Below, one piece after another: positions 3,588 through 20,587 of a DNA stretch of 52,532 bases (the first letter of the stretch is position 1; every line of letters starts with the position of its first letter). The position numbers were made by a program, and so were the translations under genes. Source of the DNA: a virus; IMG/VR virus record IMGVR_UViG_3300032046_005782, positions 1-52,532 of that record. One strand, given 5' to 3'. The notes below the pieces were generated by a model, which saw nothing but the letters and a program-made list of their open reading frames with translations, was not told where the DNA came from and did not search any database.

Positions 3588-3616
3588 TAGACTTTTGTTG
3601 TGTTTTCTGCTATACT
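3588..3616 (+). promoter_or_regulatory. Promoter for the ParB-methyltransferase gene
   Basis: TAGACT (3588-3593) and TATACT (3611-3616) with a 17-base spacer. The -35 box is weak (4 of 6) and the -10 good (5 of 6). It diverges from the partition promoter at 3506-3534. Between it and the ATG at 3676 lie GGTTGAC...GTCAACC (3629-3656) and the recurring palindrome TTGACTTGTCAA, so the transcript start region is probably controlled. Confidence 0.55.
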
Positions 3617-3642
3617 GGTACTTGGGCAGGTTGACTATAGCA

Positions 3643-3654
3643 TTGACTTGTCAA
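3643..3654. promoter_or_regulatory. TTGACTTGTCAA palindrome, copy 1
   Basis: Inverted repeat TTGAC-TT-GTCAA, 21 bases before the ATG of the methyltransferase fusion. It is nested in a larger inverted repeat GGTTGAC (3629-3635)/GTCAACC (3650-3656). The same word recurs at 16953, 26311 and 32740, with a one-mismatch copy at 20359. Probably a dimeric regulator site. Confidence 0.55.
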
Positions 3655-3675
3655 CCCTACTGCCCAGGAGGGCCT

Positions 3676-5133
3676 ATGTCGAAAAAGGCGCGCGTTGTTG
3701 TTGCTCCTGCTCCGGGTGGGCCTGCTCCCCTGCGGAGTGGGGTAGTCCATCGGGACGACATTCCCGTGGTGGCCTGCAAACCCAATCCTCGAAACTACAA
3801 CAGGCATGGGCCTGACCAGATCGCGCGGTTGCGCTTTTCCCTGCGCCAGTTCGGCCAGGTCAAATCCATCGTCGTCCAGGACAGAGACGATGGTTCGTTT
3901 TTGCTTGTCGCAGGGGAGGGGGTCTGGCGGGCGTTGGTGGCCGAGGGACTCCAGGCGGTCAAAGCGGACGTCATTCCCGCCTCGTGGAGCGAGGCGGAGG
4001 TCTTGGCATATCTGGCGGCTGACAATGAAACCGCCAGGCTTTCCGATCCTGATCAGGAGCAGTTGGCCATGCTGCTGGTGGACGTCCACCAGCAGGCGGG
4101 CCATGACTTGGCTGCGCTGGCGGCTGGTACGGAGGAGCGCCTGGCCACTCTTTTCGCCGACACCCAGATCGAGGCATTACCTGGCGCTGACGTGGGTGAA
4201 GATCCAGGGCCACAGGGAGGCGATGCACCAGAGCGCCTGCTCGATGCCTGGCGGGTGGAGCCGGGGCAGTTATGGGTCATCCCATCGCGGGTGGTTCCTG
4301 GCGGGTGGCATCGCCTGCGCTGCGGAAACTCGCGCAACCGGTACGAGATCGCCAACCTGGTGACCGACATCCAGGTGCAGTGGGTCTGGACAGATCCACC
4401 TTATGGGGCGGACTATACCGGGCGAACGGCGGATGCGCTGGTGATCCAGGGCGACACTCCGGAGGAGGTCGAGGCGCTGCTGAGCGATGCCTTCGCGGCT
4501 ATAACGCCATTCCTGATGAAGGGCTGTCCCATTTACGTGTGTCATCCTGGCGGGCCACTAACCGAGATTTTCATGCGCTGTTTCCGTGGCGCTGGTTGGC
4601 TGCTCCACCAGGACTTGGTTTGGCTCAAAGATTCCTTCGTGATGGGCCACTCCGATTACCATTACCGCCATGAACCAGTCCTATATGGCGGGACTTCGGG
4701 GGCTGATCTTCCCTGGGTCGATGAGGAGGGGGAGCAGATGGGGCCTGAGTGGGACGTCGGTGCCGGCCTGTACGCATGGCAACACGAGGCGACTCTTTAT
4801 GGCTGGTCGCAGGGTCAGAGACGGCCATGGTATGGCGGGCGTAACAAGGGTTCCGTGATGGTCGTCGCTCGCCCGAAGCGGTCCGAGTTCTATCCTACCG
4901 CGAAACCGCCAGAACTGATTGCGGGGCATCTGCGGAATTCCTCGCTGCCGGGGTCGGTGGGCCTTGATCCATTTTTGGGTTATGGGTCGACGATGGTGGC
5001 GGGCGAGCGCCTGGGGCGGCTGGTGTTCGGGCAGGACATCGAACCTAAGTACTGCGCGGCTACCCTGGAGCGGATGGCCTTGATGGGTCTAAGACCACGG
5101 TTAGCTCAGAATGCAAACGGGGAGGTTGTATGA
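3676..5133 (+). CDS. ParB-like domain fused to a beta-class DNA methyltransferase
   Basis: 485 residues. Residues about 20-110 match the ParB/Srx fold (PNPRNYNRHGPDQIARLRFS, then VVQDRDDGSFLLVAGEG); the C-terminal half is an amino-DNA methyltransferase with catalytic DPPYG near residue 240 and the AdoMet loop LDPFLGYGSTM near residue 430. DPPY before the FxGxG-type loop is the beta-class order. ParB-methylase fusions are common in phages, where they are thought to modify phage DNA against restriction or act on defined sites. The ATG at 3676 has AGGAGGGCCT before it; upstream in-frame codons overlap the promoter and are not used. The 85-residue gene after it overlaps by four bases. No restriction nuclease lies nearby. 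Confidence 0.88.
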   Translation: MSKKARVVVAPAPGGPAPLRSGVVHRDDIPVVACKPNPRNYNRHGPDQIARLRFSLRQFGQVKSIVVQDRDDGSFLLVAGEGVWRALVAEGLQAVKADVIPASWSEAEVLAYLAADNETARLSDPDQEQLAMLLVDVHQQAGHDLAALAAGTEERLATLFADTQIEALPGADVGEDPGPQGGDAPERLLDAWRVEPGQLWVIPSRVVPGGWHRLRCGNSRNRYEIANLVTDIQVQWVWTDPPYGADYTGRTADALVIQGDTPEEVEALLSDAFAAITPFLMKGCPIYVCHPGGPLTEIFMRCFRGAGWLLHQDLVWLKDSFVMGHSDYHYRHEPVLYGGTSGADLPWVDEEGEQMGPEWDVGAGLYAWQHEATLYGWSQGQRRPWYGGRNKGSVMVVARPKRSEFYPTAKPPELIAGHLRNSSLPGSVGLDPFLGYGSTMVAGERLGRLVFGQDIEPKYCAATLERMALMGLRPRLAQNANGEVV

Positions 5134-7449: not shown

Positions 7450-8142
7450 ATGGTTCCGGGACGTGGGCGTGCTGCTGAATTAGGACTTCCCCCTGCCCTG
7501 GCCACTCCCATGGGTGCGGATGGCCAGCAGGCGGGCGTGGACATTTTAGCGGACGATGGGCTGGAGTTCCCGCAGGAGGCTTACGGGTGGTTGAACGCTG
7601 AGTTGCGGGCGCTGCTGGCCATGATCCAGGGTCCACATCAGCGGAAGAAAAGGCGGACGGCCGTTGTCTTGGCCTTCGCCCAGGCGATGCAGGAGCCGAT
7701 GCGCCAGGTCTTCCGCCGTCATGCGGTAAGGGGCATCTGCTCCGAGCGGGTCTGGTATCAGAAATGGCAGTATGTTCCGGAGATCTGGTCCGCCTACATG
7801 GCATGCCTGGCGCGTTGCCTGGAGTTCCTCGACGAGGACACGGTCAAGATCGAGGAGCATTTCCTGCGGGTGAGACGTCGTCACAAAGCGCGCTATTCTT
7901 CCGAGGTGCCGGTGGCACTGGCCAGCATCATGGCCAACCCGCAAGAGCGCGCGGGAGATCGCATCGAGGCTGCTCTCGCGCTTTATAACCTCGACGAGGC
8001 GGCTGGTGGGAGATCCGGTCGGACGGTGGTCGAGGTCCAGGGCGTCGATGGGATTGACCGGGCCTTGCGGGAAGAGTTGGCGCGTTTGAACTTGGTTCCG
8101 GCTGCTCCCGGCGCTGACGCAGATCCACAGGGGGACTCTTGA
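7450..8142 (+). CDS. terS: Probable terminase small subunit
   Basis: 230 residues, helical, directly before the large terminase gene and overlapping it by four bases. The N-terminal part is low complexity; the core has a helix-rich region with basic patches (GPHQRKKRRTAVVLAFAQAM, FLRVRRRHKARYSSEVPVAL) suited to recognising the packaging site. The tail is acidic. There is no strong sequence signature, so the call rests on position and size. GGGAGGCTGTT precedes the ATG. Small subunits bind pac or cos DNA and hand it to the large subunit. Confidence 0.65.
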   Translation: MVPGRGRAAELGLPPALATPMGADGQQAGVDILADDGLEFPQEAYGWLNAELRALLAMIQGPHQRKKRRTAVVLAFAQAMQEPMRQVFRRHAVRGICSERVWYQKWQYVPEIWSAYMACLARCLEFLDEDTVKIEEHFLRVRRRHKARYSSEVPVALASIMANPQERAGDRIEAALALYNLDEAAGGRSGRTVVEVQGVDGIDRALREELARLNLVPAAPGADADPQGDS

Positions 8143-9896
8143 CCATTCTGGCGGATTTGGTGACCGGTCAATACGTATCGTGGCCACTGGCGCGCAAGGT
8201 TGCGGTACTGGCTGCGCTGCGCAGGTTATCTCCGCCAGAAGACCTGCTCTCCTGGACGATCAAACATCGTCCGTTTCTCATGCGTGATCTTCCCCTCGAC
8301 TTTCGCTCCCATGCGTTCCTTGTCCCAATCTACCAGGATACTTCCCCCAACCTGATTATCTACAAATCCAGCCAGATGGGGGCGAGCGAGTACTTGGTAT
8401 CCTATGCGCTGCATGGGGCTGATCAGCGTAAGGCGACTGTGCTGTACGTGTTCCCGACTGACGTCCATCTGTCTGACTTCTCGTCATCCAGAATCGGGCC
8501 TGCTATCGAGGCGAGCGAATACCTGTCATCCATCGTGGTCGGCGCTGGTGGCCACTCGCGCGGGGCTGACCGGGTGCGGCTGAGGCGGATTAGAGATCGC
8601 TTCCTGTATTTCCGTGGGGCTAAGGTTTCGCCCGATGGGATGGCTCCACAGTTAAAGACGATCGCTGCCGATCTGCTGATCTTCGACGAACTGGACGAGA
8701 TGGATGTGCGGGCTCCGGAGATCGCTCGAAAGCGCCTGGGGCACTCCCGACTCGCCGAGGAGCGCGCGGTATCGACTCCTACCTATCGCAACACGGGCAT
8801 CCATGCACTTTGGCTCCAGTCGGATCAGCGGGAGTGGTTCGTAGTCTGCCCGCATTGTGGCCTGCGCCAGTTTATGGACAGGAAATCCGTTATCCTTGAC
8901 GAGGATGGCCTGGGTCGGCCTATCGCCTGGCATGGCCAGGAGGATGGGACGGCCTGGCCAGCCTGCCGTAAATGTGGCGGCAGGTTGGATCGCCTCGCTC
9001 CCGGCGAGTGGGTGCCGGCCTGCCCTGGGCGGCTGCCGGTTGGCTATCACCTGTGTAAGTTATTTTCTCCCCTGGCGAGCGTTCCGGCCATGCTGGAGGG
9101 TCTGCAGAAACTGGACGAGACGGCCAGGCGCGAGGCTACAAACCAGGACTGGGGGGAGCCGTACATTCCCAGGGGCGGGCAGTTGACGGATGAAATCCTG
9201 GATGCTGCGACTCGGCCCTACAATCACGGGGCTGTTGCGGGCGAACGATCGCGCATGGGCGTCGACGTCGGCGATCTGCTCCACGTCGTGATCCGGGGGC
9301 CTGCCAATCCCGAGACGGGCGATTACCCTCAGCGGTTCGCAGGGACGGTCCAGGAATTCGAGGACGTCGTGGTGCTGATGCACTTGTATAACGTCGAGGT
9401 GTGCATCGTCGATGGTCTGCCGGAGACGCGCGAGGCCAGGCGCTTCCAAGACTCGCTGCCGGGCGGGCGGGTTTGGCGCGCGTACTACGTCACCCAAAAA
9501 ACCGGCCTGAAGCAGGAGGCTGCGATCCAGCCAAACAAGGAGGAGGGGTTCATCAACCTTGACCGCACACGGACGCTCGATGAGATGCTGGCCAGGCTGC
9601 TGGCGGCTGCTGCCGATGCTCCCGGCGCTGATCAGGCACTGGTGATGCCGGCCCAGTCGGCTACCTGTTCCCTGCCTTGCCATGCCAAAGGCATCGAGGG
9701 TTATTATGCTAATCTGAAGGCGCTTGTGCGTGTTCTGGAAGATCATGCCAGTGGGAAGGTTGCGGTGTACCAATCCACTGGGCCTGACCACTTTGCACAC
9801 GCTGAGAATTATTGCGCGGTGGCATGGGCGCTTCCTCGCCCGTTGCCCATGCCTGACCAATCTAAACTCAAGTTGCAGAAATCTGTCTGGAATTAG
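8139..9896 (+). CDS. terL: Terminase large subunit, GpA-like
   Basis: 585 residues. An adenine/Walker A-like region YKSSQMGASEYLVSYAL (deviant P-loop) near residue 80 and Walker B-like LLIFDELDEMD near residue 190 form the motor. A zinc-binding insert with CPHCG and CRKCGG follows near residues 245-290, as in lambda GpA-type terminases. The C-terminal half is the RNase-H-like nuclease (MGVDVGDL near 375, IVDGLPETREAR near 425). It cuts concatemers and pumps DNA through the portal. The start is TTG at 8139 overlapping the previous stop (TTGA), with GGGGG upstream. GpA-like enzymes often go with cos packaging, but the end type is not shown here. Confidence 0.88.
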   Translation: MTILADLVTGQYVSWPLARKVAVLAALRRLSPPEDLLSWTIKHRPFLMRDLPLDFRSHAFLVPIYQDTSPNLIIYKSSQMGASEYLVSYALHGADQRKATVLYVFPTDVHLSDFSSSRIGPAIEASEYLSSIVVGAGGHSRGADRVRLRRIRDRFLYFRGAKVSPDGMAPQLKTIAADLLIFDELDEMDVRAPEIARKRLGHSRLAEERAVSTPTYRNTGIHALWLQSDQREWFVVCPHCGLRQFMDRKSVILDEDGLGRPIAWHGQEDGTAWPACRKCGGRLDRLAPGEWVPACPGRLPVGYHLCKLFSPLASVPAMLEGLQKLDETARREATNQDWGEPYIPRGGQLTDEILDAATRPYNHGAVAGERSRMGVDVGDLLHVVIRGPANPETGDYPQRFAGTVQEFEDVVVLMHLYNVEVCIVDGLPETREARRFQDSLPGGRVWRAYYVTQKTGLKQEAAIQPNKEEGFINLDRTRTLDEMLARLLAAAADAPGADQALVMPAQSATCSLPCHAKGIEGYYANLKALVRVLEDHASGKVAVYQSTGPDHFAHAENYCAVAWALPRPLPMPDQSKLKLQKSVWN

Positions 9897-9905: not shown

Positions 9906-12119
9906 ATGGCCACTCCCTTTAAAGAGTTAGGGTCGACCGGACTCCCCCAATGGGGGGGAATCGTCATGGTCGAGACAGATCCATTACTGCGGGGGCAGTT
10001 GGGGTATCGCACTTTCGACGAGATGCGGTTGCAAGATCCGACAGGAATCGCGATGTATTACCTGCTTTCGCTCCCCATCCGGCGGGTCACGTGGTCGTGT
10101 TTGCCTGGCGGGCAGTCGGAGGCGGATCAGAAGGCTTCCGATTTCGCCTGGTCGTGCTTTGGCGACACTTCCCACTCCTTCAATGATCTAATCGCCGATG
10201 CCTGCCTTATGTTCGTTTATGGGTGGTCCTACTTCCACATGAGCGTGAAACGGCGGGCGGGGGACAAGGGGAAAGCAAAAAGCCAGTTCGACGATGGCCT
10301 GGTCGGCTTTCGGAAAATTGCTTTTCGCTCCCCCTTGACTCTCGACCATTGGGAGTTCGACGAGGAGACGGGGGACATCCAGGGCCTGTGGCAGTACCAG
10401 ATCAAAACGGGCGAGGTCGTGTACATCCCCCTGGGCGAATCGCTCCTGTTCCGGACATCACGCGAGGGAGACAATCCGGAGGGTCTATCGATCTTCCGGC
10501 CTGCGGTCAATCCATACAAGTACAAGAAACGCTTGGCCCAGGTTGAGGGTATTGGCCTGTATCGCCGGTGGGCGGGCTTCCCCTTGATCAAACTGCCCGA
10601 TGGTGCCACTTCGCGGACGGACGTGGCCGAGGGGGAGGTGTCTGACGAACAGCGGGCGGAGGAGTTGGTCAAGGCGATCTACGAGGACAGGATGATGGGG
10701 GCCTTCATCCCCACATCGTGGGATTTGAAGTTTGGTGGTCCAGAGGGTACAATCGACCGGACGATGGGCGACACCATCGTCCGCAAAGACGCGGAAATGG
10801 CGCGATCGATCCTGGCCCAGTGGTTGCTCCTGGGGATGCGCGAGGTCGGGTCACGCTCCCTGGCCGAGACGCTGCAGGGGTCGTTCACCCTGGCGGTGGA
10901 GGCATTCCTGCAGATCATAGAGGACGAGTTGAATCGCTATGCTATCCCCTATCTTTTCCGGTTCAACCCGTGGCCTGGGATGACGTCGTACCCTACCCTG
11001 ACGCATACGTCACCCAGGTCGTTGGACTTGGGCAAAGTTGGCCAGTACATTACTGCCCTGTGCGGGGCTGGTTTCACGATGGATGCTCCAACCGAGAATT
11101 TCCTTCGCTCGCTTGTGCCGGGGATGCCGGAGGCTCCGGTGGAGATGGTTTCTGAACTGCCCGTGGGCGGGGATGGCGAGACAGGGCAAACGGAAGAGAA
11201 ACCCAAACCTGGGAGCGGAGAGGGTACGGGCGAGACGGAGGGAGAAGGCTACTCACGGGTGCGGGTGCCGGCTGGTCGGCGGGAGCAATTTCTCGCCGGT
11301 GGCGCTGAGCGGTTTGGGCCTGTTCCTCCTGAAAGTCGGCCTGCCCAATACGTGACGTTCGTGGATGCCAATGCCGAGGCGCAAAGGCGGAATCTCTCCG
11401 GGTGGGCTGAAGACCTGGCCACAGAAGTGGCGGGCCTGGGGCCCGGGGCGGACGAGGTCACCCTGCGTTCCAAGCTGGACGATCTTCTGCTGGTCGGCCT
11501 GCTGCTGTTCCGGGAAAAGTCGGCGCTAGACATAGCGGCTGCATTCTGGTTGGGGTTCGGTCCGCCGACCGGCGATGCACGGGTGCAGGCGCAGTTGCGC
11601 GCGGAGATCTCGAGGGCGGATGCCTGGATTGGGTACGGGTCTGATGGGCGACTCTCAACCATCAATCCGGCTGGTAAGTCAACCCTATTCGGGGACATCC
11701 GTGGTGAACTGGAGGGCCAGATCGCGGCCATCTTGCTCCTGCTCAAAGAGGGGCGGGAGGACGATGCCTGGATTCTGGTGCACCAGGCGGTTGGGGCTGC
11801 GACTCAGGGGTTTTCTCGCGCGGAGTTGTACGCAGGGGAGGTCTGGCACTCGATTTGGTCGGGGGCTGTCGAACGTGCTATGATTGAGGATCAGCAGCAG
11901 GGATTCCCATCCCCTGTGCGGTGGGTCTTGGACGTCATTGCCAAACACTGCCGGACTTGCCCCAAGTTTGGAGCAGATCCTCCTGGGCGCGAATACCCAT
12001 CCGTCCAGGTGATGCTGGCGCAGACAGGTGGCATCAAACCCGGCCAGGGCACAGAGTGCGATGGTCGGTGCCGGTGTCATCTGGAGCGGTTGTCAAACGG
12101 GGTTTGGGCATGGCTGTAG
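9906..12119 (+). CDS. Portal protein fused to a MuF-like head morphogenesis domain
   Basis: 737 residues, long for a portal. Residues 1-410 match a Mu Gp29/DUF935-like portal: IVMVETDPLLRGQLGYRTFD, LSLPIRRVTWS, GLSIFRPAVNPYKYKK, then ILAQWLLLGMREVGSRSLAE. An acidic, repetitive linker (about 415-460) joins a second domain (about 490-737) ending WVLDVIAKHCRTCPKFG, then CDGRCRCHLERL, the Cys/His-rich end typical of MuF (SPP1 Gp7-like) minor head proteins. The portal ring is the DNA gate, and MuF proteins enter the head during assembly. Fusing them ties one MuF to each portal subunit. AGGAGGTTACT precedes the ATG. Confidence 0.82.
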   Translation: MATPFKELGSTGLPQWGGIVMVETDPLLRGQLGYRTFDEMRLQDPTGIAMYYLLSLPIRRVTWSCLPGGQSEADQKASDFAWSCFGDTSHSFNDLIADACLMFVYGWSYFHMSVKRRAGDKGKAKSQFDDGLVGFRKIAFRSPLTLDHWEFDEETGDIQGLWQYQIKTGEVVYIPLGESLLFRTSREGDNPEGLSIFRPAVNPYKYKKRLAQVEGIGLYRRWAGFPLIKLPDGATSRTDVAEGEVSDEQRAEELVKAIYEDRMMGAFIPTSWDLKFGGPEGTIDRTMGDTIVRKDAEMARSILAQWLLLGMREVGSRSLAETLQGSFTLAVEAFLQIIEDELNRYAIPYLFRFNPWPGMTSYPTLTHTSPRSLDLGKVGQYITALCGAGFTMDAPTENFLRSLVPGMPEAPVEMVSELPVGGDGETGQTEEKPKPGSGEGTGETEGEGYSRVRVPAGRREQFLAGGAERFGPVPPESRPAQYVTFVDANAEAQRRNLSGWAEDLATEVAGLGPGADEVTLRSKLDDLLLVGLLLFREKSALDIAAAFWLGFGPPTGDARVQAQLRAEISRADAWIGYGSDGRLSTINPAGKSTLFGDIRGELEGQIAAILLLLKEGREDDAWILVHQAVGAATQGFSRAELYAGEVWHSIWSGAVERAMIEDQQQGFPSPVRWVLDVIAKHCRTCPKFGADPPGREYPSVQVMLAQTGGIKPGQGTECDGRCRCHLERLSNGVWAWL

Positions 12120-12400: not shown

Positions 12401-12901
12401 CTACGGTAGATCAAAGTCAAAGAGGGGGAGTTGCACTCCCTGGGAGACGATTTCTTGCTCCCATACCCAGTAGGCACATGCGTAGCAGGTTTCTCTGTGC
12501 GTGACGACATGATACTGCGGTTCCCTGGCGTCCAGGTTCACGCTGGTAATCTCGCCACTGGCCTGGTGGCGAGATGGTGTGCGGAAGGTGACGAGCATGC
12601 CAACCGCATACCTGGGGGAGGGGCATTCCTCCTGGGAGACGATTTCTTGTTCCCGTACCCAGTAGCCAGTATCACAGTTGGAATGCATGGGGTCGTGTTC
12701 AATCACGACGCAGTACTGGGGTTCATGCCCTTCGAGGCTCACAGCACTGATTTCTTTCGTGAATTGGCGTCCATCGTGGAGCCAGAAGGTCACCAGGTTG
12801 CCTAAGGCATACCTGGGGGATGGGCATCCCCCAGGTACGCTGATGCCGGCCTGCCGGTCAGAACGGGCAGGTTCGGTCGTGGCGACTGCGCCAGTAGGCA
12901 T
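12401..12901 (-). CDS. Two-repeat protein ending in a QLPLF clamp-like motif
   Basis: 166 residues. Two tandem repeats of about 65 residues: CPSPRYALGNLVTFW ... EPQYCVVIEHD ... GYWVREQEIVSQ and CPSPRYAVGMLVTFR ... EPQYHVVTHRE ... YWVWEQEIVSQ, each beta-rich and probably a small barrel. The C terminus is GVQLPLFDFDLP; QLPLF matches the bacterial beta-clamp binding consensus. The ATG at 12901 lies inside the end of the previous gene, and the ribosome site is weak (AAAGGGT). Last gene of the minus-strand array. A role in redirecting the host replisome is inferred from the motif only. Confidence 0.65.
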   Translation of the reverse strand: MPTGAVATTEPARSDRQAGISVPGGCPSPRYALGNLVTFWLHDGRQFTKEISAVSLEGHEPQYCVVIEHDPMHSNCDTGYWVREQEIVSQEECPSPRYAVGMLVTFRTPSRHQASGEITSVNLDAREPQYHVVTHRETCYACAYWVWEQEIVSQGVQLPLFDFDLP

Positions 12902-13325
12902 ACCCTTTGGCGGCGTCTCGGAGTTGGTGGTATGTGGTTTCAGCATCTTCTTCCTCATCCCCCATGCCATACTTGTCCCACATGGCCAGGGCCTGGCGGG
13001 CGGCTGCCAGCAGGTCGGTGTCCAAAGTGTGTTTGGCGTCTTCGAGAACTGTGATGGCCGTGGCCAGGCAGACGCGGTCATGGTCGGTGATATCTGGTAG
13101 ACAGGCGATGCGCTTCGTCGTCCAATCGAGGGCCTGGATCACATCGAAGGGCGGCTGTTGCCTGGCTTCGTCCAGGCAGGGTCGGACTTTGGTGTTGAGG
13201 GCCTTCAGCAGTTCGTCGAGCGCATGGCGCTGGTCATCCACCTTCGGCTTTGGTGTTCCTGCGTTGGTCTTCCTACTCCCCAGGGTGGCCACTGCCAGAG
13301 CAAAGTGGGTGCTTGCACTCTCAAT
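12858..13325 (-). CDS. Helical unknown protein with unclear start
   Basis: About 155 residues. Central part ALDELLKALNTKVRPCLDEA, CLPDITDHDRVCLATAITVL and DLLAAARQALAMWDKYGMGD, all helical. The frame has no ATG near the previous stop. An ATT codon at 13323-13325 overlaps that stop as ATTGA, the geometry of a coupled start; GTG at 13290-13292 is the alternative. An upstream ATG at 13421 would overlap the neighbour by 100 bases and is unlikely. No family recognised; the 3' end overlaps the next gene. Confidence 0.55.
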   Translation of the reverse strand: MESASTHFALAVATLGSRKTNAGTPKPKVDDQRHALDELLKALNTKVRPCLDEARQQPPFDVIQALDWTTKRIACLPDITDHDRVCLATAITVLEDAKHTLDTDLLAAARQALAMWDKYGMGDEEEDAETTYHQLRDAAKGYAYWRSRHDRTCPF

Positions 13326-13665
13326 CTGCGTTTCCGCGTGGCTCCAGGACGATGGCCTGCATGGGACTGGCCAGAGCGAGGAGCGCCTTCCAGAACTGGT
13401 CCAGACCGCGCATGTTGCCAACGTTCAGTACCCAATCGCCCAGGTCGGTTTCCGAACCATCCATGGGGCATCCTGAGCGCGCGATGCTAATCGCCGTCAG
13501 GTGGACATAGACGTCGTTACCATCCACAGCCAGAATCTCGGCGCTGTACTGGCGGGCATGAGGATGGACGTCGTCAGGATTGGCGTTCACCCTGCGATGG
13601 AGGCTGACGGCCAACTTCTCTTGAAAGTATGGCGTCAGCAAACCTAAGACTTGGATTGGTTCCAT
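13321..13665 (-). CDS. Unknown small protein of the array
   Basis: 114 residues beginning MEPIQVLGLLTPYFQEKLAV. A beta-rich centre (YSAEILAVDGNDVYVHLTAI) and acidic DGSETDLGDWVLNVGNMRG follow. No family recognised. AGGAGGAACCGTT precedes the ATG, and upstream lie the conserved AACCCTGACA and a double hairpin (13701-13776). Like the other array genes it has its own ribosome site and is isolated from the gene before it by hairpins. Confidence 0.65.
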   Translation of the reverse strand: MEPIQVLGLLTPYFQEKLAVSLHRRVNANPDDVHPHARQYSAEILAVDGNDVYVHLTAISIARSGCPMDGSETDLGDWVLNVGNMRGLDQFWKALLALASPMQAIVLEPRGNAD

Positions 13666-13700
13666 AACGGTTCCTCCTGGTCATGATGTCAGGGTTGTGT

Positions 13701-13776
13701 TCCCCTGCGGTAGCGCCAGGGCCTGGCGGGCCTGGGGCTACCGCAGGGGAGATGGGTGTCCATCCCATCCCCCCTG
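13701..13776 (-). repeat. Array double hairpin 1
   Basis: Large stem TCCCCTGCGGTAGC (13701-13714) with GCTACCGCAGGGGA (13737-13750), then a small stem GATGG/CCATC (13751-13764). In the sense of transcription the small hairpin comes first, just after the stop of the gene ending at 13785. There is no U tract, so it is not a simple terminator. Confidence 0.8.
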
Positions 13777-13784
13777 CGCCATGG

Positions 13785-14219
13785 TTACAGGTTCCTGCGG
13801 TGAATCTCGGCCAGCAGTTCTTCGTCGGTAAAGGCGGCGAGGGGGTTGTGTTTGTTCCCCTGCACCATCTCCACCAGGTCGGCTACCTGGGCACGGATGC
13901 GTAATGCCCACCCACGTTCCTTGTCTGTGGTGGCGATGTCTGTGATGGCCAGGTCACCTTCCTGGTTCAGGAGGAGGACGTTGTAGGTGGTAGTATGGTA
14001 CTTCTGGCTACCGCGCGTAGTTGCGGTGACCAGAACCATGGGCGTGGAGACGTCCACTGTGCCGGTGGCGAGGAAGGGGCCAACAAAGGCATACCCTCCT
14101 GTTGCCAGTTCGTCGATACTGGTCACCTGCTTTACCCAAGACTTGAATCGTCCATCGTGGGGCGATCCTTCGTGGCCTGTGACCAGGGCCATCACTTCGG
14201 CGTACAAATCGCGAATCAC
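13785..14219 (-). CDS. Unknown protein of the array
   Basis: 144 residues, GTG start at 14219 after AGGAGGATTAGCTT. Reads MIRDLYAEVMALVTGHEG, then a beta-rich block (GGYAFVGPFLATGTVDVS, YNVLLLNQEGDLAITDIA) and a helical end FTDEELLAEIHRRNL. The pattern could fit a small nucleic-acid or protein-binding fold, but no family is recognisable. It sits between array hairpins 1 and 2. Confidence 0.65.
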   Translation of the reverse strand: MIRDLYAEVMALVTGHEGSPHDGRFKSWVKQVTSIDELATGGYAFVGPFLATGTVDVSTPMVLVTATTRGSQKYHTTTYNVLLLNQEGDLAITDIATTDKERGWALRIRAQVADLVEMVQGNKHNPLAAFTDEELLAEIHRRNL

Positions 14220-14254
14220 AAGCTAATCCTCCTGTCTAATGTGTCAGGGTGTGT

Positions 14255-14336
14255 TCCCCTGCGGTAGCGCCAGGGTCTGGCGGAGGGCCTGGCGTTACCG
14301 CGGGGGGGGATGGGTATCCATCCCATCCCCCCCTGG
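14255..14336 (-). repeat. Array double hairpin 2
   Basis: CCCCTGCGGTAGCGCCAGG on the left pairs with CCTGGCGTTACCGCGGGG on the right (one G-U/A-type change), followed by a small GGATGG-GTAT-CCATCC hairpin. Same design and flanks as hairpins 1, 3 and 5. Confidence 0.8.
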
Positions 14337-14342
14337 CCTGGG

Positions 14343-14597
14343 TCATCCCCACCTTGCGGCTTCCTGGTCGATGGCGTTCTGCAATCTCTCGAAGGCTGCT
14401 GCTGCTGCTTGCTTTGCGGCTTCGTAGGTTGCATAGTCGTCCATCAAGACCTGGTATGCTGCATCGACCGCATCCTTCGTGGCGGCGAGATCCGTGAAGA
14501 CGGGGTTACTACTCGATGCGATCCATCGCTTGTGGTGGGTGTCCAGTGTGGCGCAGGCGGCTTCGTATCGCGCTTTCAGCAGGGCTAATTCGTTCAT
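14343..14597 (-). CDS. Small helical protein
   Basis: 84 residues starting MNELALLKARYEAACATLDT; almost wholly helical with many alanines (AYQVLMDDYATYEAAKQAAA), likely a short coiled coil. AGGAGGAATGGG precedes the ATG at 14597. An upstream in-frame ATG at 14705 would overlap the neighbouring gene by 88 bases and has no ribosome site. No hairpin lies between this gene and the previous one. Function unknown. Confidence 0.65.
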   Translation of the reverse strand: MNELALLKARYEAACATLDTHHKRWIASSSNPVFTDLAATKDAVDAAYQVLMDDYATYEAAKQAAAAAFERLQNAIDQEAARWG

Positions 14598-14617
14598 CCC
14601 ATTCCTCCTGGCCTGGG

Positions 14618-15343
14618 TCAGTCGTTGGCCTTCTGACGCTCGACGTCGGTGAGGGTCTTGGCGATGAGGCGGGTGGCTGCTCCATCGCCCACCCACTCTT
14701 TCCACTGTCCATGAGGTGTTTCCCCTGGCAGGCGGTGGACTTCGACACGGTCGGTGTCCCAGTCTGTGATTTTGATGTAGAAGGAAGCGAGGCCCAGGGC
14801 CTGCGCGATGACGCTCCAGGTCCGCAGGTCGTCGGGCTTCACCAACCCCTGCTCCACCAGGGCGATGACGTTACGATTCTTCACACAGTCGAGGGCGCGG
14901 CTTACGTCCAGGTAGGTCTGGACGTCTTCCGGCGTGTACACATAGATGTACTGGGGCGGCTTGCCCCAATCCCGGAGCCACTGGGGGGCAGGCGCTGCTT
15001 CTTCAGGTATGTGCACACCGATGTGCTGAGGCGGCTGCTGCTGGTCAGGGTCTACCCTGCCACTGCCTTGTGCTTCTGCCACAATGATGTCTTCGAGTTC
15101 CTGCTTGTAGCGGGCGAGGCTGTCGACGGTATCGATGGCTCCGATGGTGTAGAGATCCCACATCACCATCGCCTCTTCATCATAGAGGTAGCGGATACCC
15201 TGCGGGGTCACGATCTGCAGTTCGTTGGGCCTGCCGTTGGCCGACAGCGAGACGATGTGTATCGAGGCGATCTGGCTCAGGTCATATACCCAATTGCCTA
15301 TGATCACCCGTTCCGTGGGCCTTGCGTTGTGTACGGTTTGCAT
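14618..15343 (-). CDS. Unknown 241-residue protein of the array
   Basis: ATG at 15343 after AGGAGGAACCGCC. N-terminal region beta-rich (VIIGNWVYDLSQIASIHIV, ELQIVTPQGIRYLY), then a helix (SLARYKQELEDIIVAEA), a Gln/Pro-rich linker, a repeated phrase IGVHIPEE / IYVYTPED, and a C-terminal domain ending near KWLEWV-type residues. It may bind another protein through the repeated phrase. No family recognised. It is preceded by hairpin 3 and followed closely by the small helical gene. Confidence 0.65.
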   Translation of the reverse strand: MQTVHNARPTERVIIGNWVYDLSQIASIHIVSLSANGRPNELQIVTPQGIRYLYDEEAMVMWDLYTIGAIDTVDSLARYKQELEDIIVAEAQGSGRVDPDQQQPPQHIGVHIPEEAAPAPQWLRDWGKPPQYIYVYTPEDVQTYLDVSRALDCVKNRNVIALVEQGLVKPDDLRTWSVIAQALGLASFYIKITDWDTDRVEVHRLPGETPHGQWKEWVGDGAATRLIAKTLTDVERQKAND

Positions 15344-15377
15344 GGCGGTTCCTCCTGGTTCTGATGTCAGGGTTAAC

Positions 15378-15455
15378 GTTCCCCTGCGGTAGCGCCAGGG
15401 CCTGGCGGGCCTGGCGTTACCGCAGGGGGAGAGTGTGCAGGGCCACTCTCCCCCT
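15378..15455 (-). repeat. Array double hairpin 3
   Basis: Large stem CCCCTGCGGTAGCGCCAGG with CCTGGCGTTACCGCAGGGG, then small stem GGGGGAGAGTG with CACTCTCCCCC. The small stem differs entirely in sequence from those of hairpins 1 and 2 but keeps perfect pairing. Confidence 0.8.
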
Positions 15456-15461
15456 GGCGTG

Positions 15462-15956
15462 TCAGGTGCCACAGTTGCAGGGTGGCTTGGTCACCAGCAT
15501 AAAGTGGTTTGCTGACCACTGCGCGTACTGGGCGGCGTCATCCATCAAGTTGGCGGTCACGAGCGCTTCTGCATTCCGTTCGTCGAGCGCATCCACGGTG
15601 GCCAGCACATTCCCTTCGCCGTCGATGGCGTAGTACGTGAGCGGGTCGGTGGCGTTGATGGGCCATTGCGACTTGGGCATGCGCAGGAGATCGTCGGCGG
15701 AGCAATCTTCCTCGATCCAGGACGGGCGGTGTTCGCGGGGCAACCATCCCTTGATGAAGGCGATGTCACCAGGTTCCATTCCCCCCTGCTCCGCGAGGGC
15801 GCGATCGCTGCGAATGTCAGACCGCTTGGGGTCATCCGGGATGGCGTTCCCCTTCCGGATGCCACACAGCATGACCGGCTGGTCGTGTCGGTAGGATGGG
15901 TACTTGGCGGTGTAGACGTACCAAGCGCCAATGATGCGGGTGTCACCTTGTTCCAT
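15462..15956 (-). CDS. Unknown 164-residue protein, first gene behind early promoter E2
   Basis: ATG at 15956 with AGGAGGAACAAGCA. Reads MEQGDTRIIGAWYVYTAKYP, VMLCGIRKGNAIPDD, later YYAIDGEGNVLATVDALDER and ends in KPPCNCGT. Mixed alpha/beta; the terminal CNCG may bind metal. No family recognised. Being first after a conserved early promoter it should be among the most strongly made products of the array. Confidence 0.65.
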   Translation of the reverse strand: MEQGDTRIIGAWYVYTAKYPSYRHDQPVMLCGIRKGNAIPDDPKRSDIRSDRALAEQGGMEPGDIAFIKGWLPREHRPSWIEEDCSADDLLRMPKSQWPINATDPLTYYAIDGEGNVLATVDALDERNAEALVTANLMDDAAQYAQWSANHFMLVTKPPCNCGT

Positions 15957-15989
15957 TGCTTGTTCCTCCTGGCGTGATAGGTTCTGGTA

Positions 15990-16022
15990 CTTATACGAGT
16001 TAGCGTGGGAAAACTTCAGTTG
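15990..16022 (-). promoter_or_regulatory. Early promoter element E2
   Basis: Minus strand CAACTGAAGTTTTCCCACG, then AACTCG and TATAAG. It lies between array hairpin 4 and the gene starting at 15956, so it can fire the downstream half of the array on its own. Shares the core with E1, E3 and E4. Confidence 0.7.
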
Positions 16023-16095
16023 TCCCTGCTGTAGCGCCAGGGCCAGGGCGGGCCTGGCGTTACAGCAGGGAGGATGGGTGGCCATCCTTCCCTGG
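16022..16095 (-). repeat. Array double hairpin 4
   Basis: CCCTGCTGTAGCGCCAGG with CCTGGCGTTACAGCAGGG. Compared with copies 1-3 the G-C pair of GCGG/CCGC has become T-A on both arms (GCTG/CAGC), a compensatory change. A small GGATGG...CCATCC hairpin follows. Confidence 0.8.
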
Positions 16096-16110
16096 CGAGC
16101 GGGTCGCAGT

Positions 16111-16371
16111 CTAGTCATTGCCAAACGGGGGACACGGTCGGTCAACGTCATTGATGGGTGTGTGTCCAGCCAGGGCGAGATCCAGGTCACCTGGCTCAGA
16201 CTCTGCCAGTTCGGTGGTGAGCACGAGGACGTGGCGTACTGCAAAGATGGGGTTGCCTTGCGCGTCCAAAAACTCGCATTCCACGGTGTTGGGCGTTTCG
16301 ATCTTTGGCGATCTGATCATGTTCCTGAAGACTGCTACGATTGCGACTGGTTGTCCACCATACGTGATCAT
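16111..16371 (-). CDS. Small unknown protein of the array
   Basis: 86 residues, MITYGGQPVAIVAVFRNM at the start and a proline/acid-rich end (TPINDVDRPCPPFGND). The middle is beta-rich (TVECEFLDAQGNPIFAVRHV). AGGAGGATTACAGC precedes the ATG. No family recognised. It lies upstream of promoter E2 and so belongs to the part of the array read from farther upstream. Confidence 0.6.
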   Translation of the reverse strand: MITYGGQPVAIVAVFRNMIRSPKIETPNTVECEFLDAQGNPIFAVRHVLVLTTELAESEPGDLDLALAGHTPINDVDRPCPPFGND

Positions 16372-16407
16372 GCTGTAATCCTCCTGTCTGATGTGTCAGG
16401 GTTGTGT

Positions 16408-16482
16408 TCCCCTGCGGTAGCGCCAGGGCCAAGGCGGGCCTGGCGTTACCGCAGAGGGGATGGGTATCCATCCCATCCCCCC
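16408..16482 (-). repeat. Array double hairpin 5
   Basis: CCCCTGCGGTAGCGCCAGG with CCTGGCGTTACCGCAGAGGGG, plus GGATGG-GTAT-CCATCC. Nearly the same sequence as copies 2 and 3, with a one- or two-base bulge. Confidence 0.8.
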
Positions 16483-16494
16483 TGCCCCTGGGCA

Positions 16495-16929
16495 TCAGTA
16501 CTGCCTGAGCAAGATCAGAATCTTACCCCTGCGCAGCAGGTCCAGGCTCTCCATGTCGGGTCGCAGGCGACTCCAACGTTCCTCGAACTGTCGGCGGGCA
16601 TCGGCGAGGTTGAGGGCGCTAACTTCCCCCAGGTACGTTCCTGCCGGGGCATAGGCTGCGAACTGGTCCAGTTGGTACGCTTCGAATCCGGGCTCCAGTT
16701 CGAGCGTGGGGTCATAGGGCGCTGGCCAGGACTGGTCGGGATTGTCGGAGCGGTACACCAGGGCGCTGTTGAAGTGGCCACAGGGCAGGGCAATGGGGAC
16801 GGTGGTACGGGCGATCCGCTTGTCGTGGTAGTGGAACATAACTTCGACCGTGATCTTGTCGGCCTTCCCGCAGTTGTAGCATCTGACCACGGTTCCTGCG
16901 GGGCGGGTGAAGACTGTAATCGTGTTCAT
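16495..16929 (-). CDS. Unknown protein with a possible metal site
   Basis: 144 residues, MNTITVFTRPAGTVVRCYNC at the start. CYNCG with later PCGHF could form a Cys/His zinc site. The C-terminal half is helical (ALNLADARRQFEERWSRLRP). AGGAGGATTATGCA precedes the ATG, and a TTGACTTGTCAA palindrome lies 24 bases upstream. No family recognised. Confidence 0.65.
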   Translation of the reverse strand: MNTITVFTRPAGTVVRCYNCGKADKITVEVMFHYHDKRIARTTVPIALPCGHFNSALVYRSDNPDQSWPAPYDPTLELEPGFEAYQLDQFAAYAPAGTYLGEVSALNLADARRQFEERWSRLRPDMESLDLLRRGKILILLRQY

Positions 16930-16952
16930 TGCATAATCCTCCTGCTATCGTC

Positions 16953-16964
16953 TTGACTTGTCAA
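16953..16964. promoter_or_regulatory. TTGACTTGTCAA palindrome, copy 2
   Basis: Lies 24 bases upstream of the ATG at 16929 on the minus strand, between that gene and array hairpin 6. It may punctuate control inside the array. Confidence 0.55.
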
Positions 16965-16985
16965 TCGAGTAAGGTGTTGGTGTTA

Positions 16986-17055
16986 CCCAACCAAAAACCC
17001 AGGCTGCCGGGGGCCTGGGTTTTTGGTTGGGCAGGAGGGCGTCCAACCCTCCTGC
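16986..17055 (-). repeat. Array double hairpin 6
   Basis: CCCAACCAAAAACCCAGGC pairs over 19 bases with GCCTGGGTTTTTGGTTGGG; a second stem GCAGGAGG/CCTCCTGC follows. The primary sequence is unlike the other copies, yet the two-stem layout and position are the same. The first stem is strong enough to slow polymerase. Confidence 0.8.
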
Positions 17056-17075
17056 CGTTGCCTGTGGCCACTTCC

Positions 17076-17795
17076 TCATTCCTGTTCCGGGTCGTCGTAG
17101 GACTTGAGGACGGCGAGCGCCTGGTCCATGTCCATCTGCACGGGCGCTTTGATGTGCAGTCGCTCGATGGCGGGCTGGCATGCCCAGTCGGAGGGGCCTT
17201 CGCGGGTGATCCGGTGGACTGGCTTGCCCAGGGTCACGAAAACGTCCAGAACGCTGTCATACCCCTGTTGTGCCAATTCGACCACGAGCATGCGCTGCGC
17301 TTCTCCATCGTTGCGGGCTAAGACGCTCAGAGTGGGGTTGCTGGTTCCCATCTTGACGTGGTCGTCGGTGTAGGCGCTGTACTCGTGGTCCTTGACTTCC
17401 GTGAGCGGGACGTGCTGGCTCAGGCGGGCATCCCACACGGTTTCCGTAAAGCGGGCCTTCTTCTTCGCCAAGCGCAGCAGGACGTCGGCGACTTCCGGGC
17501 GTTTCCAGGATTCTTTGGAATTGAGGGCTGCGCGGGCGGCTTGCGTGGCCAGTTCCAGGCTTTCGAGGTCGCGCGCGGTCACTTCGATGTCGGCTGCGTA
17601 CCATTCTGACCAGTGCTTGTCCCAGGTGCCAGCCTTCTGCTCCTGGCCTTCCTCGATCCTGTTGGCCTGCCAGACGAGGGCAACCACGGGGTTGCCATAC
17701 TCGGTGGTGCGAATCTCCAGGCGCAGGTGCGTGTACTTGTCCCATGCGCCTGGGTCTTCCACCAATACCGTGTAGAGGTAAGTTTGCTTGTTCAC
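17076..17795 (-). CDS. Unknown 239-residue protein of the array
   Basis: GTG start at 17795 after AGGAGGATTGAC. N-terminal beta region (YLYTVLVEDPGAWDKYTHLR, NPVVALVWQANRI), a long helical centre rich in Lys/Ala (LATQAARAALNSKESWKRPE, VLLRLAKKKARFTE) and a C-terminal domain ending in an acidic tail. No family recognised. It is flanked by array hairpins 6 and 7. Confidence 0.65.
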   Translation of the reverse strand: MNKQTYLYTVLVEDPGAWDKYTHLRLEIRTTEYGNPVVALVWQANRIEEGQEQKAGTWDKHWSEWYAADIEVTARDLESLELATQAARAALNSKESWKRPEVADVLLRLAKKKARFTETVWDARLSQHVPLTEVKDHEYSAYTDDHVKMGTSNPTLSVLARNDGEAQRMLVVELAQQGYDSVLDVFVTLGKPVHRITREGPSDWACQPAIERLHIKAPVQMDMDQALAVLKSYDDPEQE

Positions 17796-17829
17796 GTCAA
17801 TCCTCCTGGGTTAGTGTCAGGATGGCGTT

Positions 17830-17945
17830 CCCCTGCTGTATCACCAGGGCCTGGGGTAGTCGCTTGCCAGGGCAACCCCTGGGGCAACCTTGCAGGTTCT
17901 GGTGATACAGCAGGGGGGGATGGTTGCTGGCGCTGTCCATCCCCC
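17830..17945 (-). repeat. Array double hairpin 7
   Basis: CCCCTGCTGTATCACCAG (17830-17847) pairs perfectly with CTGGTGATACAGCAGGGG (17899-17916) around a 51-base apical region; a GGGGGATGG/CCATCCCCC stem follows. The GTATCACC/GGTGATAC segment replaces GTAGCGCC/GGCGTTAC of other copies, so both arms changed together. Confidence 0.8.
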
Positions 17946-17958
17946 ACTGCCTGGCTGT

Positions 17959-18447
17959 CTATCGCTCCCATCGGGTCAAGGCACTCATCTGCTTCCATGA
18001 GAGCGGGCGGCTGTACTTGCGCGCGTCGGGCGGGGTTTCGATGTATGAAACTACCTGGTCGCGCAGGCTCCGGCGGAAGTCGGAGCGGAAGTTCTGAACC
18101 GCGAGCAGTTTGGTCAGGGCGACTCGCTCCGTGGGGTTGTCTACGTAGAGCGCCAGGTATACTTGCCAATCCTGGGGCATGTCCTTCGCTCCCTTGATGG
18201 CCCATACGGTTTCCCACTGGCTGGCGTGCTGCGCATATTCATCACCCGTCATCCAGTCGGGGATTTCTACGGGCCTGACTTCCCACTTGTTCACCTGTAC
18301 GGGTCGGAAATCGTCGGGCGAGAAGATGCAAGGCTTCTGTTCCGTCAGGTCTGCGGGGTCGGCGTCACCCTTCCACTCGCGTACAGGCGACTTCGGCGTG
18401 TACGTGAGTTCGCCATAGTGGCGGCAGAGAATCAGTACGGTCTTCAT
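17959..18447 (-). CDS. Unknown 162-residue protein of the array
   Basis: ATG at 18447 after AGGAGGATTCGACA. Starts MKTVLILCRHYGELTYTPKS; then ADLTEQKPCIFSPDDFRPVQ and a tryptophan-rich helical end (YAQHASQWETVWAIKGAKDM, PLSWKQMSALTRWER). No family recognised. The next upstream gene ends 282 bases away, a gap filled by array hairpin 8. Confidence 0.65.
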   Translation of the reverse strand: MKTVLILCRHYGELTYTPKSPVREWKGDADPADLTEQKPCIFSPDDFRPVQVNKWEVRPVEIPDWMTGDEYAQHASQWETVWAIKGAKDMPQDWQVYLALYVDNPTERVALTKLLAVQNFRSDFRRSLRDQVVSYIETPPDARKYSRPLSWKQMSALTRWER

Positions 18448-18728
18448 TGTCGAATCCTCCTGGGTATAGTATGCGCCTAGCCAGGCTAATCGGCCACTCG
18501 GCCTGGCCAGGCTACCACACGAACCATTGGACTGCTTGCCCGTCACCCGTCCATCCAGAGCGTGGTGGCTCTCGCGCGTCAATTCGCGCTTCCCATGCCC
18601 AGGTGACTTATAGGGCAGTTTACCGTGGCCTATTCTGCCCCAGGGCTTCCCTACCTTCAGCCCAGGCCAGGCCCTGGCCTGGGCTGAAGGTAAGGGGAGC
18701 GTCACTCTCCCCTTACCCTTCTTCTTGT
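18448..18728 (-). repeat. Gene-free gap holding array hairpin 8
   Basis: The strongest palindrome of the array is here: ACCTTCAGCCCAGGCCAGG (18653-18671) and CCTGGCCTGGGCTGAAGGT (18673-18691), 19 perfect pairs with a one-base loop. A TAAGGGGAG/CTCCCCTTA stem follows (18691-18716). A weaker inverted repeat around TAGCCAGGC / GCCTGGC lies at 18477-18514. I see no convincing reading frame between. Confidence 0.75.
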
Positions 18729-19148
18729 CTAGTGGTCCAGTTGCAGGGCCAGGCGGGCCTTGCGAACTGCGCGGGTCAAGCGTGGCAGGTATCCTACCTG
18801 CAGGCGGTTCTGCGCAGGAAAGTCGTACTGTAGCGCGCTGATCACTTCCATTCCGAAATCTACGGCTGCGCTTTCCAGGGCGGCGAGCGCCTTGACCGCT
18901 TCGCTCTTGTCGCTCAGGGTGCCGCTGTCTGCGCCATCGGTTTCGTCAAGGAGGGGTTCGTTGCGCAGGGCCAGGCGGGCCTTGCGGACTGCCGTGATCA
19001 GGTTGGGCAGGTATCCTACCTGCAGGCGGGCCTGTGTGGTCGGGTCAAACTTCGTAACTTCGATCACTTCCAGACCAAAGTCTACAGTGGTACTCTCCAA
19101 CTCCTTGAGCGCGTTGACCACTTCACTGTGGCTATAGACTGCGTCCAT
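18729..19148 (-). CDS. Protein of two tandem 60-residue repeats
   Basis: 139 residues. Repeat 1 contains EVVNALKELESTTVDFGLEV and RLQVGYLPNLITAVRKARLA; repeat 2 contains EAVKALAALESAAVDFGMEV and RLQVGYLPRLTRAVRKARLA. Each is a pair of helices with a short link. The copies are also near-identical at the DNA level in places (for example GTATCCTACCTGCAGGCGG twice), so the duplication is fairly recent. AGGAGGAACAAACG precedes the ATG. Basic ends (RKARLAL) suggest nucleic-acid or protein contact. No family recognised. Confidence 0.65.
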   Translation of the reverse strand: MDAVYSHSEVVNALKELESTTVDFGLEVIEVTKFDPTTQARLQVGYLPNLITAVRKARLALRNEPLLDETDGADSGTLSDKSEAVKALAALESAAVDFGMEVISALQYDFPAQNRLQVGYLPRLTRAVRKARLALQLDH

Positions 19149-19178
19149 CGTTTGTTCCTCCTGGGTAGTGTCAGGGTT

Positions 19179-19245
19179 GCCCCTGCTGTAACCGCAATCC
19201 CTGAGTGGGGTTGCGGTTACAGCAGGGGAGGATTGTCGAATCCTC
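19179..19245 (-). repeat. Array double hairpin 9
   Basis: CCCCTGCTGTAACCGCAA pairs over 18 bases with TTGCGGTTACAGCAGGGG; then GGAGGATT/AATCCTCC. The GTAACCGC/GCGGTTAC segment again differs from other copies on both arms. Confidence 0.85.
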
Positions 19246-19258
19246 CACCTGGCTGCTG

Positions 19259-19669
19259 CTAGTACCCAAACGCGCGGGCCCAGCGCGTGACTCCGTACCA
19301 CTGCGCTTTCGGTACGGTGTTGATGATCTTGTCGGCGATGGCGTCGAGCTTCTTCGCCAGGGCCAGGCGTTCGTTGTAATCGCCATTCAATCCGAAATCC
19401 GCCGTCATGGGCATGCAATGGTGGCGGTCGTCGGGTGAAACGCTGAAGGCTACCATCCGCCAAATGTAGGCGGTCTCTCCGCCTTCGGTGACCACCTTGC
19501 GTCCACCAAACTCGTCACGCTCGTCCGTTTCGGTGTATACAATCGTCGGCTTGCTTGCGCGCAAGCATCCGGTGTGGTGGTTTACAATCCCCTGGGCGAG
19601 TGCGTGTTCGTCGGCGGTCAAGTTGGCCTGGCTGAGGTCAATCGTCGGGTACGTCCGCCTTGCGGTCAT
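19259..19669 (-). CDS. First gene of the minus-strand array, unknown
   Basis: 136 residues. Starts MTARRTYPTIDLSQANLTAD, then EHALAQGIVNHHTGCLRASK, YIWRMVAFSVSPDDRHHCMP and a helical end (LALAKKLDAIADKIINTVPK). Three HH/HHC-type histidine groups might bind metal. AGGAGGAATGATACA precedes the ATG. It follows a roughly 450-base structured leader read from a promoter near 20150. No family recognised. Confidence 0.65.
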   Translation of the reverse strand: MTARRTYPTIDLSQANLTADEHALAQGIVNHHTGCLRASKPTIVYTETDERDEFGGRKVVTEGGETAYIWRMVAFSVSPDDRHHCMPMTADFGLNGDYNERLALAKKLDAIADKIINTVPKAQWYGVTRWARAFGY

Positions 19670-19689
19670 TGTATCATTCCTCCTGGGGT

Positions 19690-20143
19690 TGAATTTATGC
19701 GGTAGTACCGCACCAGCAGTCTACCAGGTTTCTGGTCTGCTGCTGGTGGGGTATTACCCCTGCCGTCTTACCCTCTACTGCTTTTCTCCGCCAGGTCTTT
19801 TTCAGGTTTCCCTGTGTGGTCCAGGAGTTTCCCACCAACCTTGCGTTTCCCAGTCCAACCCTACCTTCCCAGGTTTTGGTTCGGCCAGTCTGCCGGATTC
19901 TCACCGTCGGGTCTTGGCTTTGAGCTTCGCTTTCAGGTTCCCCCTTGCTTAGTTACTCCCTGGGTTCGGGTTTTCCCGTTCTTCCCGTCCCTGCGCTTTG
20001 CGCCTGCCGTGGAGTTTGTCGCTAGAGCGTCCCTTTACTTGCTCTACTCGGCTAGTTTGTTCTGGTGCTACTCTGGCCAGGGCTTCCCCATCTGGTGGCC
20101 AGGCTCCCTGGGGGGCGGCTTCCCCCTTCGTGCTCCCTTACTG
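19690..20143 (-). ncRNA. Candidate structured RNA or long leader of the array
   Basis: About 450 bases without a believable protein frame. The minus-strand transcript is purine-rich with many short stems capped by A-rich loops: CUGGCCA/UGGCCAG (20073-20102), UAGAGC/GCUCUA (20023-20046), CGGG-AAAA-CCCG, GCGC-AAA-GCGC, AACC-AAA-ACCU-GGGA-AGGU-AG-GGUU, CAGG-GAAA-CCUG (19803-19814), GGGGU/ACCCC (19748-19760), CACCAGCAG/CUGCUGGUG (19711-19748) and GCGGU/ACCGC (19699-19711). GNRA loops and unpaired A runs are typical of large folded RNAs. It could be a free RNA or the 5' leader of the gene at 19669; no U tract marks its end. No known family recognised. Confidence 0.55.
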
Positions 20144-20149
20144 TCTATA

Positions 20150-20158
20150 ATCATACCA
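20150..20158 (-). promoter_or_regulatory. Extended -10 promoter for the array leader
   Basis: Minus strand TGGTATGAT: TG one base before TATGAT (20150-20155), an extended -10 box. No good -35 is found at 17 bases. Transcription would begin near 20143 and read the structured leader, then the array. Confidence 0.45.
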
Positions 20159-20558: not shown

Positions 20559-20587
20559 TTGACATTGGCGCGCTTTTGCTGTATAAT
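20559..20587 (+). promoter_or_regulatory. Consensus late promoter
   Basis: TTGACA (20559-20564), a 17-base spacer and TATAAT (20582-20587): a perfect vegetative promoter, the only one of this quality in the window. It points at the structured RNA and then the lysis and head genes. Just upstream lie the GTAAGACAC/GTGTCTTAC palindrome and repeated AAGTAAGAC words, possible operator sites. Confidence 0.92.

Follow-up and report, generated by a model that had tools for sequence, protein, structure and literature searches.

Hairpins and processing sites between cistrons have been described in phages, and in phage T7 RNase III processing sites lie between the early genes. No T7 site is known in which alternating segments recap both products. 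Here we describe a repeated element from a 52.5-kb virus record of IMG/VR (IMGVR_UViG_3300032046_005782), all 52,532 nucleotides (nt) of which are referred to as the window. The element separates most genes of a minus-strand array of thirteen small genes, g1 to g13, and probably works at the mRNA level, between cistrons, by splitting or insulating the shared transcript gene by gene. It resembles the T7 sites, long intercistronic hairpins of a polycistronic early phage transcript, with cleavage being a proposal in the present case.

The nearest repeated, start-linked inverted repeats are the extended start-associated sequences (ESAS) of cluster K mycobacteriophages, described together with the start-associated sequences (SAS; PMC3203893). 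As in our array, they lie just upstream of many small non-structural gene starts, and one consensus per phage lineage is common to unrelated genes. The ESAS arms, however, do not covary and, in the view of the authors, who favour protein-binding sites, do not support RNA pairing, and the SAS is one conserved 13-mer beside the start codon (PMC3203893), whereas the arms of the present element covary and its four segments alternate. The 13-bp SAS, GGGATAGGAGCCC, was not found in the element sequences, where the Shine–Dalgarno sequence (SD) stands in the context CCCAGGAGG. The plastid intercistronic expression element (PMC2230500) likewise lies between cistrons, and through it an operon yields monocistronic mRNAs, but it belongs to a plant organelle, has another sequence and does not recur behind nearly all genes of its operon. 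Integron attC sites (PMC2727003) are also structure-conserved, sequence-variable hairpins following the genes of a one-way array, with the opposite strand folding better; unlike them, the present array has neither R′/R″ boxes nor an integrase. Neither Rfam nor a limited literature search yielded a described family in which four alternating segments recur behind most genes.

A covarying element with four alternating segments

The sequence-only reading had proposed at least nine two-hairpin elements between the minus-strand genes. Nine were indeed present, after g1, g2, g3, g4, g5, g6, g7, g9 and g10 (19262 down to 13673), together with a variant before g1 (19773–19679); the g8/g9 gap and the last two genes, g12 and g13, have none. 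Each element starts a few nt past a stop codon and ends at CAGGAGG. This flank follows all copies, whereas the other flank thought to be shared, AACCCTGACA, is exact in four of the nine and near-exact in two more. The stems that had been quoted exist: GTAACCGC/GCGGTTAC after g1, GTATCACC/GGTGATAC after g3 and GTAACGCC/GGCGCTAC in the g5–g9 copies, the last with one A·C mismatch on the mRNA strand. Both hairpins are real, one being G/C-rich (H1) and the other (H2) a stem of 18–27 bp in all nine window copies and in relatives, thus about two helical turns between cistrons, as in RNase III-processed hairpins. The outer word of H2 is conserved (CCCTGC/GCAGGG and variants) and its middle varies, while a mostly conserved CCAGG/CCTGG lies close to the top; mismatches cluster at positions 11–14 and 18–19, and the stem often has one central mismatch. 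H2 is spaced 17–40 nt from the SD in most copies, and the predicted folding energy of most elements is about −50 to −90 kcal/mol.

What had been overlooked is a third hairpin, 5′ of the SD, which uses bases of the H2 3′ arm as its own 5′ arm. The 3′ arm of H1 is also part of H2, whose first bases it uses in most copies. The element can thus be described as four alternating segments, GCAGGG-CCCTGC-GCAGGG-CCCTGC or the same arrangement of GTAGGG/CCCTAC or GTTGGG/CCCAAC words. Segment 1 lies behind the stop codon of the upstream gene, the base of H2 is made of segments 2 and 3, and segment 4 lies about 10–15 nt before the SD, where it can alternatively pair with the last 6–7 bases of H2. In the element after g10, for instance, segments 1 (GCAGGG, 13777–13772), 2 (CCCTGC, 13748–13743), 3 (GCAGGG, 13708–13703) and 4 (CCCTG, 13694–13690) are followed by the SD AGGAGG (13678–13673). 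As segments 2 and 3 can each pair with either of two others, 1:2 plus 3:4 pairing excludes 2:3 pairing.

The 3:4 word differs between phages, being GCAGGG...CCCTGC in the related record L006, GTAGGG...CCCTAC in L015 and GGGGG...CCCCC in L008. After g4 it is GTTGGG...CCCAAC in L015 and nearly so in the window and L006. Segments 3 and 4 switch word jointly between elements. Their complementarity exceeded that of shuffled spacers, the word of the own element being the best match in 26 of 30 copies, and when words were permuted among elements, the observed 3:4 sum was reached in 0 of 3000 permutations; the 1:2 pairing gave a weaker signal (9 of 3000). The two states are predicted to be near-isoenergetic (A vs B, +2.1 kcal/mol on average; less than 4 kcal/mol apart in 23 of 30 copies). 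After an in-silico cut, segment 2 paired within the upstream piece at 0.81 (0.55 in shuffles) and segment 3 within the downstream piece at 0.81 (0.59 in shuffles). An exact search for the four words over whole loci showed little contrast to shuffles, the words being short and the copies imperfect. L015 also contains partial units, one gene being preceded by a short unit of 3:4 alone and another by H1 plus segment 4.

Compensatory change, as the sequence-only reading had claimed, conserves the fold. When 27 distinct copies, drawn from five phages, were aligned over 18 bp of H2, 94.7% of the cells paired and double changes occurred at 13 of the 18 pairs. The covariation score of 0.527 compares with 0.135 ± 0.015 for shuffles, none of 500 of which reached it, and with at most 0.113 for slid structures; these shuffles ignore relatedness and the stem itself served to register the alignment, yet both controls are far below the observed score. 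RNAalifold gave 22 pairs, nine of them with double changes, for 13 copies from three phages. The g5–g10 copies of the window are 88–94% identical to their closest sisters and hence count as about one witness rather than as independent ones, so that the independent witnesses are the g1–g4 copies and those of other phages. The near-identical records L020 and L023 showed no informative stem changes between them.

Distribution among phages and gene exchange

A covariance model (R1) built solely from the nine window copies matched only the corresponding arrays of four other IMG/VR records: L017 (the L006 contig), L020, L023 and L005. The lowest E-value was 4e-13, and the matches lie between different gene pairs. 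In the whole 64.7-kb and 23-kb relatives the matches were confined to the array; the nine full copies of the window all lie in array intergenes, oriented with the genes, and no other was found in the window or the 64.7-kb relative. A diverged form with H2 and 3:4, missed by the model, occurs in L008 and L115 (capsid 70% identical). No element was detected in the portal relative L011 (51% identity), in capsid relatives (about 35%) or in ten distant g1 carriers (L018, L019, L021, L022, L024–L029). The same held for cultured phages and genome contigs, and the array DNA had no match among 50,697 phage records. The phages form a small family of uncultured tailed phages without close relatives in culture. 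The exact H2 DNA pattern had no match in viral contigs. Degenerate 3:4-plus-SD patterns hit about 75 other stretches of viral and genome contigs, which we regard as chance, as none had a segment 2 upstream or matched R1 at E < 0.1. No Rfam family reached its gathering threshold with the element, and a relaxed E-value yielded microRNA-like chance matches only.

The array had also been taken for a modular cassette system with the hairpins as possible recombination points. This idea is supported in part: R1 matches outside this genome and between different gene pairs, so that the outcome named beforehand as refuting did not arise, and gene order and content vary between relatives. The order is g1-g2-g3 in the window and g2-g1-g3 in L006. 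The latter has an additional gene, X, but no g9-g10, a pair found only in the window; L015 differs more. Elements after g1–g4 are closer to their L006 counterparts than to their sisters, i.e. they tend to stay with the upstream gene, while those after g5–g7 are closer to their sisters, the g5–g10 copies being homogenised within each genome. Gene g9 is flanked by a direct repeat, TGACCCAGGCCAGGRGGRATGGGATG, that is made up of the element start and is identical at 24 of 27 positions (14315–14345 and 14590–14622, minus strand). It is apparently an inserted gene, the element start (segment 1) having been turned into the SD and start of g9.

Dedicated recombination points, in contrast, are unsupported. 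The IntI-type tyrosine recombinase domain PF00589 is absent from the window and four related records, which may be fragments. Compared with the attC heptamer consensus RYYYAAC...GTTRRRY, 33 of 35 elements lack an R″/R′ pair, and the two that have both boxes are of the g4 word. Gene order is mostly conserved, and one exchange boundary does not lie at a hairpin, gene X of L006 joining g5 at the SD without a hairpin of its own. Exchange does occur at the elements, and homologous recombination between copies suffices for it; site-specific recombination is unsupported.

Proposed cleavage and recapping weighed against alternatives

Among the roles suggested from the sequence alone, isolating, processing or protecting each mRNA appears to be the best reading. 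We favour, with a probability of roughly 0.4, a model of cleavage and recapping. The element would be a cis-acting RNA motif of a long transcript, probably an early or accessory one. The intact RNA would interconvert between a full H2 (2:3) and three hairpins (1:2, the H2 top and 3:4). A host double-strand-specific RNase of the RNase III type would cut H2, whereupon segment 2 of the upstream piece could refold with segment 1 into a 3′-terminal hairpin, and segment 3 of the downstream piece with segment 4 into a 5′-terminal hairpin just before the SD. Every gene would thus end up on a separate mRNA, protected by a hairpin at either end. The model would explain the two partners of segments 2 and 3, the balanced states, the two-turn H2 with its central mismatches and the location of segment 4 before the SD. 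More tentative is the fuller proposal of a self-recapping element in which one cut in the central stem yields both caps, which recurs behind most genes of an operon and whose word drifts as a set between phages.

Several observations weigh against cleavage and recapping. No RNase III gene was found in the contigs, so that the model has to assume an enzyme of the host; some copies (L015 g4, L008) show weak or no 1:2 overlap, and the statistics count related copies as separate. Moreover, the mRNA strand has more A·C mismatches than G·U pairs (29:9), wobble pairs do not speak for mRNA as the acting strand, and in 30 of 33 copies it is the antisense strand that folds more stably. At fourfold-degenerate sites, however, the plus strand is similarly G/T-rich in the array and the late genes, whatever the gene direction, which suggests a strand-wide, replication-linked skew that can explain both the mismatch bias and the antisense stability. 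Since this skew is shared by array and late genes, we dropped wobble asymmetry as evidence on the acting strand. We infer that the mRNA is the acting molecule from placement, orientation and spacing.

Without cleavage, the elements could be structural insulators whose strong hairpins hold back drifting ribosomes, prevent long-range misfolding and stop 3′ exonucleases, with an independent translation start for each gene and the alternation keeping pairing local. The low folding energies and the partial units of L015 would fit, and so would the accessibility of the SD, which is equal in both states (mean 0.43 vs 0.45) and argues against a translational on/off switch at this site. Simple unrelated hairpins would do for insulation, which leaves the two partners of segments 2 and 3 and the balance of states unexplained, and we consider this account possible but rather unlikely. 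An action on RNA polymerase (pausing, attenuation or processive antitermination) with the long leader of the array as partner is very improbable: although the element is repeated, the leader conserved and the mutually exclusive hairpins attenuator-like, no U-tract follows H1, H2 or H3 of the main type on the coding strand, and no leader peptide was seen. A terminator scan gave one minor minus-strand match inside the g4 H2 arm (17011–16998), while the array ends, unlike the elements, carry terminator-like sites. Nine repeats in one operon are likewise not expected of such a device.

Two further accounts place the cause in the DNA. Hairpins in single-stranded DNA might be attC-like or homologous sites for cassette shuffling, in line with the differing order and content among relatives, the homogenised copies, the tendency of elements to stay with the upstream gene, the repeat flanking g9 and the better folding of the opposite strand. 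This is improbable, as integrase and R-box pairs are missing, order is mostly conserved, gene X joins without its own hairpin, the skew accounts for strand stability, and the stop-to-SD placement is left unexplained. Alternatively, the repeat could be a mutational by-product that recombination has spread, its arms staying complementary through quasi-palindrome template switching while the fold is not under selection. Template switching can yield compensatory changes, the copies within each genome are near-identical, and the wobble signature of RNA selection is lacking; yet the joint change extends to segment 4, central mismatches are retained, the stop-to-SD placement is kept in diverged phages, and the repeat is restricted to one operon, which makes this explanation quite improbable.

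The array and its surroundings

The plus strand of the window encodes the large terminase (8139–9896), portal (9906–12119), lysin-like, head protease and major capsid proteins. In the portal/lysin interval the array occupies the minus strand, with a promoter-like site near 20160 at its start and a terminator-like hairpin with a T-rich tail (12405–12363) at its end. In every relative it is antisense between the portal gene and the lysin, protease or capsid genes. None of its proteins had a convincing match in PHROG or Pfam. An A/G-rich leader of about 450 nt (19690–20150), with a promoter-like TATGAT just upstream, precedes g1 and is kept in L006 (18880–19350) and partly in L015 (6290–6770) and L005 (4940–5290), with a conserved promoter region and the motif CCCGACRGTGNRAATCYGGC. 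Compared with shuffles, its folding is better in the window (z −3.0) and not clearly so in L006 (z −1.3), and it matched no Rfam family. The variant element 5′ of g1 comprises a GGGGTAATACCCC hairpin, a long stem and GCGGTACTACCGC, and matches R1 weakly (15.8 bits).

Gene g1 (19259–19669; 136 amino acids) represents a family without known fold in 14 diverse IMG/VR contigs; its predicted structure (pLDDT 91.5) gave no significant Foldseek match in the PDB and one strong match in BFVD, A0A248SJR3. It is followed by an element at 19157–19262 (H2 19180–19228; 93 bits, this and the following scores being from the covariance-model scan). Behind g2 (18729–19148) lies an element with a GGTAAGG-type H1 (18630–18732, H2 18649–18695; 64 bits) and an extra structured spacer to 18456, and behind g3 (17959–18447) one whose H2 (17830–17916) has an extended loop (17802–17962; 80 bits). 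The GTG-initiated g4 (17076–17795) is followed by the element with the GTTGGG/CCCAAC word also seen in L006 and L015 (16957–17079, H2 16986–17031; 78 bits). Next come g5 (16495–16929) with its element (16380–16498, H2 16409–16457; 123 bits), g6 (16111–16371) with its element (15999–16115, H2 16023–16071; 87 bits), and g7 (15462–15956) with its element (15351–15465, H2 15381–15428; 101 bits). Genes g8 (14618–15343) and g9 (14343–14597, with the imperfect 27-bp repeat on both flanks) precede the element at 14228–14346 (H2 14256–14306; 105 bits), and g10 (13785–14219, GTG start) the last one (13673–13788; 115 bits). The array ends with g11 (13321–13665), g12 (12858–13421; overlapping g11, start tentative) and g13 (12401–12838), a tandem duplicate of a unit of about 70 amino acids. 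In the window both g2 and g13 consist of a tandemly duplicated domain, of which the L006 versions have a single copy.

In L005, a gene for a sigma-like/helix-turn-helix protein (3594–4166, minus strand) lies inside the array, where its neighbours are g1 and another small gene and elements flank it on either side. A perfect palindrome, TTGACAAGTCAA, a possible operator, occurs upstream of the array leader in L006 (19535–19546, minus strand) and in the g4–g5 intergene of the window (16953–16964, minus strand). Divergent from the array promoter and upstream of the lysin and capsid genes is a perfect 12/12 sigma-70 consensus promoter, TTGACA-17-TATAAT (20559–20587, plus strand). Genes for a ParB-N/DNA methyltransferase fusion (3595–5133, plus), a ParA-like ATPase (2401–3186, minus), a DnaA_N/DnaD-like protein (46916–48301, minus) and a DUF1257 protein (48892–49296, minus) point to possible plasmid-like maintenance.

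Phages often have dozens of small genes per transcript, and it is seldom known what allows each of them to be expressed independently. A repeated, covarying four-segment element would represent a compact natural part that splits an operon into separately protected messages. The elements also show, with g9, how gene gain can occur at such sites, and they would provide a case of concerted evolution of an RNA structure within one genome.

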